Source of the DNA: a virus
Virus record (IMG/VR): IMGVR_UViG_3300025853_000614
Span: 1-24,721 of that record
DNA length: 24,721 bases
Reading direction: 5' to 3' (one strand)
Part shown: positions 10,933 to 14,963 of the stretch, piece by piece
How the letters are laid out: each line of letters opens with the position of its first letter
Position numbering within the stretch: the first letter of the stretch is position 1
The notes under the pieces: model-generated
The model's database searches: none
What the model was told of the DNA's origin: nothing
The model's input: the letters and a program-made list of their open reading frames with translations, nothing else
Position numbers and translations under genes: made by a program

Positions 10933-10975
10933 TCACCCTCGATCACCATTTGGTGTTGACAGGGTGATTTTTTTT
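10933..10975 (+). terminator. Strong rho-independent terminator
   Basis: TCACCCT (10933-10939) pairs with AGGGTGA (10961-10967), followed by eight T. A second hairpin (CACC...GGTG, 10944-10955) sits in the loop. It ends the repressor/PAS-like operon. Confidence 0.85.
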
Positions 10976-10984
10976 GCCCATATT
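10956..10984 (+). promoter_or_regulatory. Candidate promoter of the recombination operon, overlapping the terminator
   Basis: A perfect -35 box TTGACA (10956-10961) lies in the terminator's loop and 3' arm, followed after 17 bp by CATATT (10979-10984). Transcription would start near 10991, about 27 bp before the ERF start. The -10 box is weak. Confidence 0.5.
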
Positions 10985-11017
10985 CACATCTCAATATGCA
11001 AAACATGGATAGTGAAC

Positions 11018-11665
11018 ATGGAAATGTCTCCGACTCAGGACGTCCAAACGCCCGGTCTTCTCGATGCAATGCTCAAGTGGCATACCGACGCCACAATCCT
11101 AGCCGCAAAAGACAAAGCCGCCTTCGGAAAGTACGTGAAGTACGAAGTCATCAAGGCTGAAGTCACACCTCTTTTACATTCACTTGGCTTGTTCGCCCAT
11201 CATATCTCGCACCCCGTACAAGGCGGTGTCGCTGTAGAGACTGTGATCTATCACACGAGCGGCGGGCGCATGTCTGGTGGGATCGTTAAGGTTCCGCCTA
11301 GTAAACCAAGTGAGGCGCAGTACGGAGCTGCCTTAACGTATGCCAAGCGCTTCTCTTTAGTTTTGGCGCTAGGTCTCGGCGGCGATAAGGATGCCATCGA
11401 GCACAAGACTTCAGTGTCCCTCGAGGACGAGATCACCGATGACGATTACGAGCCGGTGCCAGAGGCGGCAAAGCCAGCTAAGAAAGAGCCGAACGCAACT
11501 GAGATTAAAAATCGGTTGTTCAATGAAGCCAAGGTGGTTGAAGCAAAGACTGCAACCGAAGCGAAAAAGCGATTCACCAAGTACGAAAGCGGAATGCGAG
11601 CCAGAGGACTAGAAGTCGATCGCACCAAGTTCGATGAGTGGCTCAAGGAGAAATTCAGTGCATGA
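11018..11665 (+). CDS. erf: ERF-family single-strand annealing protein
   Basis: 215 residues. The ERF core is clear: a GLFAHHISHPVQGGVAVET strand region and the signature AQYGAALTYAKRFSLVLALGL (residues 100-120), followed by an acidic, Lys/Glu-rich C-terminal tail. ERF proteins anneal complementary single strands and work with a 5'-3' exonuclease, which is the next gene here. ATG at 11018 is chosen because the region before it holds the promoter; GTG at 10964 would read through the terminator. The ribosome-binding site is weak (GGATAGTG). Confidence 0.85.
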   Translation: MEMSPTQDVQTPGLLDAMLKWHTDATILAAKDKAAFGKYVKYEVIKAEVTPLLHSLGLFAHHISHPVQGGVAVETVIYHTSGGRMSGGIVKVPPSKPSEAQYGAALTYAKRFSLVLALGLGGDKDAIEHKTSVSLEDEITDDDYEPVPEAAKPAKKEPNATEIKNRLFNEAKVVEAKTATEAKKRFTKYESGMRARGLEVDRTKFDEWLKEKFSA

Positions 11666-12677
11666 GCAGGGAAGCCAAGAGTGGCTAGATGAACGCAAGA
11701 ACAAGCTGACTGCGTCTACCATCGCGGTGCTTGAGGACAAACACCCACACCTTACAAAGGAAAAGTTTGTCCGACAAAAGGTACGCGACATCTGTGGTTG
11801 TGAGAACGAGTTTGAAATCGTTCCGGCAATGGAGCATGGAACTGCTATGGAGCCGGTTGCTCGTGACTACCTAGAGTACCTTAGGGGTTATGAAGTGGAG
11901 GAAACGGGTCTGGTTGTACATCCAGAGTACCCCTTCATAGCTGCTAGTCCCGATGGGTTGGTTGGTTTATCAGGGTGCATCGAGATCAAGTGTCCCTACC
12001 CGAAGTACAACAAAGAGCCGTACAGCATCTTTGATGATAAGAAGGCTATGTACCTGTGGCAGGTTTACCTCCAGATGGAGTGCCTTGAAGTCGATTGGTG
12101 CGATTTTATTTGTTACCTCGCCGATAACGATGCTGCCACACCTAAGGTCAAGATTGAGCGCGTTGATCGAGTGAAAGGCTGGCTAAATGAGAACGTGCCC
12201 GGAAAGCTTTTGCCGGAGCCTGCCGCCGGAACAGTTCAACGTATTAGCCTGTACGAAGCATGGTTCGATCACATTCAAACTATCGCTGCCGATGAGGAGC
12301 TGCGACAGGAGTACATCAAGCCAGCTCAAGACGACGTAATGAAGGTCAAGCCCACCAAAGAGATGGAGGAGCTTAGCTTTCTACAGCGACGACTCGCTGA
12401 GCTACAAGAGACTTACCACGACGACCTCGAAGAGATCGCTGCGATCAAAAAGAAATCTGATGCGCTGAAAAAAAGTATCGCTGACCAATACCAATGCTCC
12501 GTAACAGACGGACTGGTCACCGTTCAGCTCATCAATCGAACCCCAACCATTGACTATCGCAAAGCCTACGAATTTCTAGGCGGAGATCAGGCGGTTCTCG
12601 ATCGAGGCGGCTCACCCGAGACGTTTCGTCGAGAGAACAACAACCGTCAAATCAACATCAAATATGGAGCTATTTAA
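11658..12677 (+). CDS. YqaJ / lambda-exonuclease-family recombination nuclease
   Basis: 339 residues. The N-terminal QGSQEW and LTAST match the family. Catalytic residues are E65 (GTAMEPVA), D99 (AASPDGL) and E109-x-K111 (CIEIKCP), as in lambda exonuclease. It should digest one strand of duplex DNA 5'-3' and hand the other to the ERF protein. The C-terminal third is an extra helical region with a coiled coil (about 235-275). GTG at 11658 has AAGGAG seven bases upstream and overlaps the ERF gene by 8 bp. Confidence 0.9.
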   Translation: MHEQGSQEWLDERKNKLTASTIAVLEDKHPHLTKEKFVRQKVRDICGCENEFEIVPAMEHGTAMEPVARDYLEYLRGYEVEETGLVVHPEYPFIAASPDGLVGLSGCIEIKCPYPKYNKEPYSIFDDKKAMYLWQVYLQMECLEVDWCDFICYLADNDAATPKVKIERVDRVKGWLNENVPGKLLPEPAAGTVQRISLYEAWFDHIQTIAADEELRQEYIKPAQDDVMKVKPTKEMEELSFLQRRLAELQETYHDDLEEIAAIKKKSDALKKSIADQYQCSVTDGLVTVQLINRTPTIDYRKAYEFLGGDQAVLDRGGSPETFRRENNNRQINIKYGAI

Positions 12678-13006
12678 TGAGCGACTTCCAACCGAAGCCG
12701 AACACTGGCAAAGCGTGGCTCACGTCACGAGACGACAAGCTGCGTGAACATGAACGTCTCACTCAGTATGACTGGTACAACGACATGTCAAAAGAAGAGC
12801 AAGGCATGAAGATCCCGACACACTCAGGGAACCTTCACGTCGAGACCGATGCTGGTCTGCTGGCTCTTGGCATCACCGTGTGCAAGGAAACTAACCGAGC
12901 AGGTAACGAGCAGCTCGCCCTCAGGGTCTGGCAGAAAAAAGCTAAGACCGATGATGGTGTAGTGCAAACCTCTAAGCCCGTCTTAGAGGACGACCTGCCA
13001 TTTTAA
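12677..13006 (+). CDS. Putative single-stranded DNA-binding protein
   Basis: 109 residues. The C-terminus (LEDDLPF) is the acidic, phenylalanine-ended tip typical of SSB proteins, which binds replication partners. The core (THSGNLHVETDAGLLALGITV) could be an OB-like fold but does not match a classic SSB by eye. It follows the exonuclease with a TAATG overlap, a place often taken by SSB in phage recombination operons. The assignment rests on tail and position. Confidence 0.6.
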   Translation: MSDFQPKPNTGKAWLTSRDDKLREHERLTQYDWYNDMSKEEQGMKIPTHSGNLHVETDAGLLALGITVCKETNRAGNEQLALRVWQKKAKTDDGVVQTSKPVLEDDLPF

Positions 13007-13018
13007 GGGACACCATTT

Positions 13019-13414
13019 ATGGGACTGCGAATCACCAGAGCTGTAAATACGGTGGTTTACGGAGGATATGATTTAGATGACAAGCGTCCAAACTCATCCT
13101 TCGACCATCGTATATGGATTCGCGGAGTCAGGAATCATCGCGATCGACAGGAAGGGATCGTCAATATCAAAACTGGCTTGGGTGTCGAGGAACATGTCAT
13201 CCAAGTTGGCGACGACCCGCTTCACTTCGGTGAAGACTTGTCCATCGAGATGGTTGGTGTCCGCGACAGGATCGCCCAGGCTGAACCGTACTGCGAAGTA
13301 TGTGGCAGAGGGCATTCATTCACGGATCGACAAACACCCCAAGCGGAACTAGCACTCAACGCACCGCGCAACTACCGACTTATTCGAGACAACGCAAGGA
13401 GAAAATCTCGATGA
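13019..13414 (+). CDS. CsrA-like RNA-binding protein with a cysteine-containing insert (tentative)
   Basis: 131 residues. The last 60 look like CsrA split by an insert: GEDLSIEMVGVRD (71-83) resembles the second strand, then an insert with C92-x-x-C95-GRGH, then AELALNAPRNYRLIRDNARRK (109-129), which aligns with the CsrA segment ending NAPKEVAVHREE. R123 sits where the RNA-contacting Arg of CsrA would be. The N-terminus (LRITRAVNTVVY) also resembles the CsrA start, and RIWIRGVRN repeats the strand-2 pattern, so the protein may hold two halves. AAGGGA lies before ATG. It may bind phage or host mRNA. Confidence 0.42.
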   Translation: MGLRITRAVNTVVYGGYDLDDKRPNSSFDHRIWIRGVRNHRDRQEGIVNIKTGLGVEEHVIQVGDDPLHFGEDLSIEMVGVRDRIAQAEPYCEVCGRGHSFTDRQTPQAELALNAPRNYRLIRDNARRKSR

Positions 13415-13653
13415 ATGAACAGCAGCAAATCCAAATCAACGGTCAGACCTACAACGTTGATGATCTCAGTCAACCATGCAAGGAGCTTTTGGTCCGCGCA
13501 CAGAACGGTCAGAACGCTATGGCTGTTATGGGCACGATCATCGATTTGGCTCGCATCGGTCAAGAGGTCATCAACATCGATCTTCAGAAGCTACTTCCTA
13601 CACAAGAGGAAGAGGCTGAGCCTGAGATCGCTGAAGGTGAGCTGATCAACTAA
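13411..13653 (+). CDS. DUF6447-like small protein
   Basis: 80 residues. The start INGQTYNVDDLSQPCKELLVRAQ followed by a helical segment fits the DUF6447 pattern (a short beta-hairpin, then helices); the function of the family is unknown. The C-terminus is acidic (EEEAEPEIAEGE). ATG overlaps the previous stop (ATGA) and AAGGAG lies upstream. It is the last gene of the recombination operon. Confidence 0.6.
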   Translation: MNEQQQIQINGQTYNVDDLSQPCKELLVRAQNGQNAMAVMGTIIDLARIGQEVINIDLQKLLPTQEEEAEPEIAEGELIN

Positions 13654-13654
13654 T

Positions 13655-13799
13655 TCTCACTCCATGAGATAGGACAGGGGGAAACCCTACGAAGAACTGG
13701 TCAGAGGCACCAGTGTCCGAAACGCCTCACCTAATTCCGGTTGGCTCACGTTACGAGCTGGACTCTTAGTGTGGCTTGCCCCCTACGGGGGGCTTTTTT
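13655..13799 (+). ncRNA. Structured, pseudoknot-capable RNA of unknown class
   Basis: The gene-free stretch between 13654 and the integrase folds almost throughout. Helices seen: TCTCA/TGAGA (13655-13669); an outer helix GGACA (13672-13676) with TGTCC (13714-13718) that encloses GGG...CCC (13677-13687) and CTGGT/ACCAG (13697-13713); a loop segment GAGGC (13704-13708) complementary to GCCTC (13724-13728), which makes a pseudoknot; GGCTC/GAGCT (13743-13759); and the terminator stem. It may be a small RNA or a leader that controls integrase. No known riboswitch or ribozyme core was matched. Confidence 0.5.
13778..13799 (+). terminator. Rho-independent terminator before integrase
   Basis: GCCCCC-TACG-GGGGGC followed by six T. 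It ends the recombination operon and the structured RNA. The integrase ATG is only 13 bp further, so read-through or antitermination would control integrase level. Confidence 0.85.
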
Positions 13800-13811
13800 A
13801 CAGGGATGACA

Positions 13812-14771
13812 ATGAAGACACAAAACAATATAGTCCAAAAGGTTCCGAGCGCCTCTCCTGATTCATGGAGTAGAACTATGGGACTTTGTACTTTTGAGAA
13901 GCTTTCGAAAATTTACCTCACCACTTGTAGTCGGCGAGGGATCGAGAGGAACGGCACAGCCAAGCGCGTAATTAGCGAAATGGTTGATGAGTGGGGTGAC
14001 CACCAGCTCGACGAGATAACAACTCTCGACATTCGGGTTTTAGTGGGATCGCTTCAGCAGGAAAGAAAGCTGAAGAACAGCACCGTCAACTGTTACCTAA
14101 ACTACCTCAGGGCAATGCTGAACTTCGCGGTGGAGGAACTTGAAATGAAGTTCGTTCCACCGAAGATCAAAGCTTTAGAGGAGAACAGGAGGACAAACTA
14201 TCTGGAGCCGAATGAGGTCGGTAGACTGATTCGAGCACTGGATCCTCTGAGAGCAGACATGGCTGAGTTCGCATTCCTTACCGGGTTGCGTAACAACAAT
14301 GTTCGGACGCTCAAGTGGAGACACGTCAAGCATGGATTCTCTGTGCTGGAGTTCTCCGCAGCCGAGATGAAGAACAATAAGCCAGTGTCGATGTCGCTGA
14401 CAAGGGATTGTCAGGCACTGCTCAAGCGCAGGATGCGGATGAAAGAGGACCTCGAGCATACGAGCCGAAGGGTGTCGGATATCGAGTACGTTTTCTTCCA
14501 AGATAACGGGGAACCGTTGTCGCAGAAAAGTGTGGTTAACAAGACATGGAGACGAGCGGTAAAGATAGCTGGCTTGCCAGCGGGAACTACGTTCCACACG
14601 CTCCGACATTCCTATGCTTCGTACCACATTAAGGCGGGCACTCAAGCCGTCGAGTTAGTGGAGATGGGTAACTGGGCTTCACTCAATTCGGTAGCAAGAT
14701 ATACCCACCTAAACACGGAGCGGAAACGCGAAGTGGCTAACCGTATGCAAGGTGTATTGCGTCAGAAATGA
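13812..14771 (+). CDS. int: Tyrosine recombinase (phage integrase)
   Basis: 319 residues. The catalytic set is complete: R160 (LTGLRNNNVR), K187 (EMKNNK), H262-x-x-R265 (FHTLRHSYAS), W288 (MGNWAS) and Y297 (ARYTHL). The N-terminal 120 residues hold the SAM-like core-binding domain (STVNCYLNYLRAMLNFAVEE); the first 25 residues may bind arm sites. ATG at 13812 has AGGG seven bases upstream; ATG at 13806 is too close to it. It lies directly beside attP, with its stop codon touching the first arm-type repeat. It should insert the phage into a tRNA-Gly(GCC) gene. Confidence 0.95.
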   Translation: MKTQNNIVQKVPSASPDSWSRTMGLCTFEKLSKIYLTTCSRRGIERNGTAKRVISEMVDEWGDHQLDEITTLDIRVLVGSLQQERKLKNSTVNCYLNYLRAMLNFAVEELEMKFVPPKIKALEENRRTNYLEPNEVGRLIRALDPLRADMAEFAFLTGLRNNNVRTLKWRHVKHGFSVLEFSAAEMKNNKPVSMSLTRDCQALLKRRMRMKEDLEHTSRRVSDIEYVFFQDNGEPLSQKSVVNKTWRRAVKIAGLPAGTTFHTLRHSYASYHIKAGTQAVELVEMGNWASLNSVARYTHLNTERKREVANRMQGVLRQK

Positions 14772-14882: not shown

Positions 14883-14894
14883 AGATGTTAAAAA

Positions 14895-14943
14895 TGGAGC
14901 GGGAAACGAGATTCGAACTCGCGACCTCAACCTTGGCAAGGTT
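14895..14943 (-). other. attP core: 3' half of tRNA-Gly(GCC)
   Basis: Read on the minus strand, this is the 3' part of a tRNA: anticodon arm AACC-TTGCCAA-GGTT, the T arm GCGAG-TTCGAAT-CTCGT, the acceptor strand TTCCCGC, discriminator T and an encoded CCA. The 5' half is absent and the sequence beyond 14943 does not continue a tRNA. A phage copy like this restores the host tRNA gene after integration. Crossover probably falls in the palindromic anticodon arm (14929-14943). Confidence 0.9.
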
Positions 14944-14963
14944 TCCATACGCATCCTCAGTAG

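Follow-up and report, generated by a model that had tools for sequence, protein, structure and literature searches.

A new family of pseudoknotted phage RNAs at gene boundaries, often just 3′ of recombination and single-stranded-DNA-binding protein genes

What occupies the gene-free stretch between the recombination operon and the integrase gene of the virus in IMG/VR record IMGVR_UViG_3300025853_000614? We analyzed positions 1 to 24,721 of that record, viral DNA of 24,721 nucleotides (nt) that we refer to as the window. An earlier note, made from the letters of the window alone, had proposed that the stretch encodes a structured, pseudoknotted RNA of no known class. Comparison with relatives bears this out: the element belongs to a new RNA family, and we regard the family as almost certainly real. 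It comprises phage RNAs of ∼50 to 70 nt with a common fold, in which an outer helix (P1) encloses a hairpin that some members lack (P2) and a further hairpin (P3); the P3 loop forms a pseudoknot with bases that follow P1 closely on its 3′ side, after a short (A)AAC linker.

All helices of the proposed fold are present within 13654-13812, on the plus strand like every feature described here unless noted. The P1 5′ strand, GGACA (13672-13676), pairs with TGTCC (13714-13718), a 3′ strand supported by covariation in our diverse alignment; double-sided changes are seen at all four P1 pairs that were counted. Inside P1 lie P2 (13677-13687), formed by GGG (13677-13679) and CCC (13685-13687), and P3, in which CTGG (13697-13700) pairs with CCAG (13710-13713). 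The P3 loop contains GAGGC (13704-13708), which forms the pseudoknot with GCCTC (13724-13728); a near-invariant unpaired A (13709) separates the former from P3, and the linker GAAAC (13719-13723) brings its conserved (A)AAC directly against the latter. The 5-bp outer helix and the two hairpins of the earlier note are thus present, and the pseudoknot lies at the coordinates that it gave. Its remark that almost every base of the stretch can pair was loosely worded; the conserved core spans 13672-13729. The further hairpin and the terminator that it described downstream are both present, but the hairpin, CCGGTTGGCTCACGTTACGAGCTGG (13737-13761), is conserved only in the close family of the window, where it is near-invariant (window, L004, L005, and L025). 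It echoes the TTGGCTCA...ACGAGC of the core in other members and is perhaps a second, degenerate copy of this element. The intrinsic terminator (13778-13799), GCCCCCTACGGGGGGC plus a T run, is conserved in L004, L005, and L025; its hairpin part spans 13778-13793, and the T run follows.

Energy folding of 13654-13812 was not significant (z = −0.96; 40 of 200 shuffles folded equally well or better). The case for the fold therefore rests on comparative data, since folding energy alone would not support it. We searched for relatives by gene order, leaving the RNA sequence itself aside. As queries, integrase and the DUF6447-like protein retrieved only close relatives; alignment of the YqaJ exonuclease reached farther. 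The order ERF, YqaJ, a protein resembling single-stranded-DNA-binding proteins (SSB-like), a 131-amino-acid (aa) protein, sometimes the DUF6447-like protein, the element, and integrase recurs in full or for the most part in phages whose exonucleases are 47 to 52% identical and whose integrases are 30 to 37% identical to those of the window.

The intergenic stretches of these gene-order relatives have the same fold in different letters. The pseudoknot is GAGGC/GCCTC in the window, GGCTC/GAGCC in L026, L028, L036, and L038, GGTTC/GAACC in L027 and L032, and GCTCC/GGAGC in L029; P1 occurs as GGAC/GTCC, CTAGGG/CCCTAG, CTAGC/GCTAG, and GAGGG/CCCTC. For P3 plus the pseudoknot in 11 gene-order sequences (one loop base of L029 was removed for alignment), 95.5% of cells are paired, with the P3 5′ strand paired in 100%, and 24 double-sided changes compare with a shuffled mean of 7.8. 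The covariation score is 0.613, against 0.174 for shuffled alignments and 0.153 for the best slid version, and none of 500 shuffles reached it; sliding the 3′ partners by 1 to 3 columns lowers pairing to 30 to 44%. The absence of compensatory changes in homologues, which the earlier note had named as grounds for abandoning its claim, is the opposite of what we observed.

The family extends well beyond phages that share this gene order. A DNA pattern for the core matched 37 viral stretches, and in an alignment of 17 diverse members, trimmed by hand, P1, P3, and the pseudoknot are 96.2% paired, with 45 double-sided changes versus 11.0 in shuffles (0 of 500 reaching the observed value). A covariance model of P1 plus P3 revealed that L104 and L112 unexpectedly carry another copy on the other strand, with a further pseudoknot, GGCCC/GGGCC. 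Two further patterns brought the total to 56 distinct elements with at least seven pseudoknot sequences, all complementary. Among distinct viral matches to one pattern, 13 of 13 keep the free pseudoknot pair and a P3 of at least 4 bp; the identical pattern gave 14 matches in bacterial genomes, 9 with the pseudoknot pair and 2, both apparently Pontiella, with P3. A TTGG pattern gave 38 distinct matches: both free pseudoknot pairs and P3 are present in 33, and the remaining five lack P3. P1 has at least four pairs in 50 of 55 elements, whereas swapping the partners gives 26.8; this control is conservative because related elements have P1 in common. G-U pairs outnumber A-C mismatches 18 to 2; therefore, the selected molecule is the sense-strand RNA.

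Comparison with Rfam upheld the earlier view that the RNA fits no known class: at the curated thresholds of Rfam 15 neither the window nor nine relatives gave a match, and relaxed scans gave only weak chance matches far under threshold. The family is absent from Rfam and, as far as open-licence papers go, previously uncatalogued. A nucleotide search for isolate phages carrying the element gave nothing convincing at lax E-values, and a relaxed descriptor found no element in the regions fetched from the isolates nearest by protein (Methylophilales phages MEP401/402, Roseobacter phage CRP-125, Pelagibacter phage HTVC008M, Melnitz, and Stenotrophomonas phage DLP_6). Six of 398 Pseudomonadota genomes had a pattern match, about as many as with a reversed-pattern control, and none had the full fold; the covariance model gave one weak, seemingly spurious match in 289 bacterial genomes. 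We rejected as chance the matches in L015, L019, and L066, as well as a second match in Pontiella sulfatireligans. Since the sampled Pseudomonadota genomes lack the element, the RNA looks largely phage-borne. Its carriers are podovirus-like, siphovirus-like, and T4-like contigs, mostly fragments, and two Pontiella chromosomes. In the latter (L143, Pontiellaceae; L148, P. sulfatireligans) the RNA lies 5′ of a gene resembling the phage family phrog_4756, and the flanking DNA is 75% identical; these copies are probably part of a phage-related element.

Placement is independent of gene identity, at gene boundaries, and often just 3′ of recombination or SSB genes. Integrase-bearing phages of the window type have the element between the DUF6447-like gene and integrase; in L099, L103, L104, and L113 it follows ERF-like, YqaJ-like, and SSB-like genes and precedes a phosphoesterase gene; in the T7-like contigs L101, L116, L122, and L130 it separates the primase-helicase from the DNA polymerase module; and in the T4-like contigs L170, L205, and L219 it adjoins a gene 33-like gene. 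A stop codon falls between 14 nt before P1 and 8 nt into it in 37 of 56 elements. In 29 of 56, the upstream 1.3 kb contain the end of an open reading frame (ORF) whose product has an acidic tip of the SSB type (...D(D/E)IPF), and such an ORF lies directly 5′ of the RNA in the unrelated phages L177, L179, L198, L199, and L209. Several copies are 18 to 45 nt upstream of a start codon; those in L104, L171, and L214 are 4 nt ahead of a terminator with only convergent genes beyond, and those in L116 and L130 are just past divergent genes. A terminator is found within 120 nt in 9 of 49 nonredundant elements. Given such varied placement, neither a regulator of the upstream gene nor one of the downstream gene fits every case.

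Some contigs have more than one copy. L104 (184-246 on the plus strand and 1590-1652 on the minus strand), L171, and L177 carry pairs on opposite strands, one copy within the recombination operon and the other immediately before the terminator of the convergent operon. The T4-like contig L219 has tandem pseudoknots on the minus strand (545-570 and 583-609; GGCTT/AAGCC and GGCCC/GGGCC). As for the genes upstream of the RNA in L198, L199, L179, and L209, their products have D(D/E)IPF-type tails and match poorly annotated or SSB PHROG families (phrog_862 and phrog_44), making them candidates for annotation as putative SSBs.

In the window, the recombination operon begins with an ERF-type single-strand annealing protein (10964-11665; Pfam ERF, E = 8e-7), followed by a YqaJ-type exonuclease (11634-12677; Pfam YqaJ, E = 3e-20) and a putative SSB (12677-13006). 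Because the last has no Pfam or PHROG match, we infer its name from gene order and its acidic C terminus (...VLEDDLPF). Next comes the marker gene of the operon, encoding the conserved 131-aa protein (13019-13414), whose homologues in L020 to L040 are 39 to 99% identical. Its initial 47 bp (13019-13065) are near-identical DNA in the window and L005, while the whole proteins are only 83% identical; this may possibly reflect an overlapping signal. The small protein immediately 5′ of the RNA (13411-13653) is called DUF6447-like for its L027 homologue, which resembles that family at E = 2.8e-5, slightly short of the family cutoff; the protein of the window itself has no match. The tyrosine integrase (13806-14771; Pfam Phage_integrase, E = 5e-23) may start at either of two in-frame ATGs, at 13806 and 13812; the earlier spacing of 13 bp from terminator to integrase ATG holds for the latter. 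Downstream of integrase, the minus strand has at 14893-14945 a partial tRNA-Gly gene, its 3′ half, with 94% identity over 49 bp to the tRNA-Gly of Escherichia coli; this is probably the phage attachment site.

Elements found by pattern carry the bases that the pattern fixes, and so we judged base conservation only on the gene-order set. Its recurring unpaired bases are few: the A past the pseudoknot 5′ strand and the (A)AAC before the 3′ strand. P3 nearly always finishes in GG/CC beside the pseudoknot. P2 is optional: L036 and L038 lack it and hence have no three-way junction.

The nearest kinds of RNA are already known. Like the element, the exoribonuclease-resistant RNAs (xrRNAs) of flaviviruses lie in viral transcripts and combine an outer helix and two hairpins with a pseudoknot in which the P3 loop pairs immediately beyond the 3′ strand of the outer helix; one of these xrRNAs halts both Xrn1 and the bacterial RNase J1 (PMC5760640). 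Members with P2 have both the three-way junction and the P3-loop-to-3′ pseudoknot of xrRNAs. The element differs in its dispensable P2, its lack of sequence similarity, and its lack of an Rfam match; by eye, we saw neither the small helix that joins 5′ end and junction in xrRNAs nor their junction bases, a weak UGA before P3 being the sole candidate for a conserved junction feature. It resembles xrRNAs at most in layout; we do not claim membership, and exonuclease resistance would be an analogy. The STAXI motif (Rfam RF01728) is likewise a pseudoknot near SSB and integrase genes (PMC2864571), and L219, alone among our contigs, shares its tandem arrangement. However, STAXI is defined by a pseudoknot repeated at least twice in tandem, whereas our records mostly have a single clear copy, and we rejected identity with STAXI when the RF01728 model matched none of eight element-bearing records at E ≤ 1. 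In phage T4, gp32 binds a pseudoknot within the mRNA that encodes it, and the autoregulatory pseudoknots of T4 and T2 lie 5′ of gene 32. These too are phage mRNA pseudoknots linked to an SSB gene; our element, in contrast, is found on the 3′ side of genes that include SSB-like ones, and an additional helix encloses it.

What might such an RNA do? Tentatively, we favor a gene-independent structural element that acts as an exonuclease barrier or a processing boundary. Position and structure suggest a mechanical unit of phage transcripts: P3, the pseudoknot, the linker, and P1 would close into a ring, as expected because few nucleotides separate P1 from the pseudoknot strand, and the ring, laid out as in flaviviral xrRNAs, could halt exoribonucleases or serve as a processing boundary. 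Flanking transcript segments, above all the recombination/SSB module, would then decay at differing rates. A mechanical fold is well suited to a family with gene-independent placement and few conserved unpaired bases. In the window, the element would close off the recombination mRNA at its 3′ end, before the terminator, and separate it from integrase. A bolder proposal, rather doubtful in our estimation, is that this would be the first phage-encoded exoribonuclease-resistant RNA family, with a layout evolved independently of flaviviral xrRNAs, shielding the transcripts of many double-stranded-DNA phages from host exoribonucleases. Several points weigh against a barrier or boundary. For copies with a strong terminator right behind them, another block at the 3′ side is of little benefit. 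The tRNA-Gly half in the window hints at a gammaproteobacterial-type host; many such hosts lack RNase J, and therefore a 5′-to-3′ block might have no enzyme to stop. Finally, a purely mechanical role leaves unexplained the UCCU of the P2 loop and the association with SSB-type genes.

Each of these last two features is at the center of a close rival. UCCU, common in the P2 loop of relatives, resembles the anti-Shine-Dalgarno end of 16S rRNA; within 32 nt 5′ of P3 it occurs in 24 of 49 nonredundant elements versus 8.7 in dinucleotide shuffles, and UCCUU in 15 versus 2.8 (maximum, 8), with UCCY starting most frequently 16 nt ahead of P3. It is possible, though we think it improbable, that the family consists of trans-acting small RNAs released from mRNA 3′ ends, stabilized by the pseudoknot, whose C-rich loop would pair with the Shine-Dalgarno sequences in mRNAs of the host or the phage. 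Variable neighbor genes and the copies directly preceding terminators fit this idea, but the motif is missing in the window, L026, L028, and L185, the copies in L101, L122, and L173 lack a terminator and are followed by a start codon after a few tens of bases, and no independent promoter was seen 5′ of the element in the window. Somewhat more doubtful is an operator for autoregulation of the T4 gp32 type, to which a phage protein would bind; SSB or some other recombination protein would be the likeliest candidate. The frequency of SSB-type ORFs upstream of the RNA, some directly before it, argues for such an operator, as do the two acidic-tip proteins that PHROG calls single strand DNA binding proteins and a gp32-like gene (named by eye) ∼3.5 kb from the element in T4-like L205. 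Yet the RNA is 3′ of the SSB-type genes rather than over their ribosome-binding sites, the second copies in L104, L171, and L214 follow unrelated genes, and the SSB-like proteins come from different families.

Other functions rank lower. A self-cleaving ribozyme, a recoding (frameshift or readthrough) signal, and a single-stranded DNA structure used in replication or integration are, taken together, unlikely. Ribozymes are similarly gene independent, but the invariant unpaired bases are too few for a catalytic core; P1 often begins on a stop codon, but no conserved slippery site was seen by eye in the sequences inspected, and in L099 and L103 the frame closes soon after the stop; and the frequent replication and recombination neighbors, which would suit a DNA structure, are set against the G-U excess that indicates RNA. 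Least probable is a metabolite riboswitch governing the downstream gene. The earlier note had considered the layout typical of ligand-sensing or regulatory RNAs and had pointed to the nearby integrase ATG, and the compact pseudoknotted fold, the copies shortly before start codons, and the terminator in the window are in keeping with a ligand-sensing RNA that acts on integrase. The comparison does not support it: integrase, a DNA polymerase module, phosphoesterase, gene 33, or nothing at all lies downstream, without a common function; copies before terminators or past divergent genes are evidence against a single-gene riboswitch; and conserved unpaired bases are few, with no match to an Rfam riboswitch.

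Because the family is not in Rfam, loci such as this one pass for intergenic DNA with nothing in it. A fold that compensatory changes have maintained across several unrelated phage groups must serve something general in infection. If the element is a barrier or boundary, a phage could stabilize or separate segments of polycistronic transcripts wherever the fold is placed, and an element of 60 nt with mutable helices makes phage tuning of the decay or translation of operon segments directly testable.
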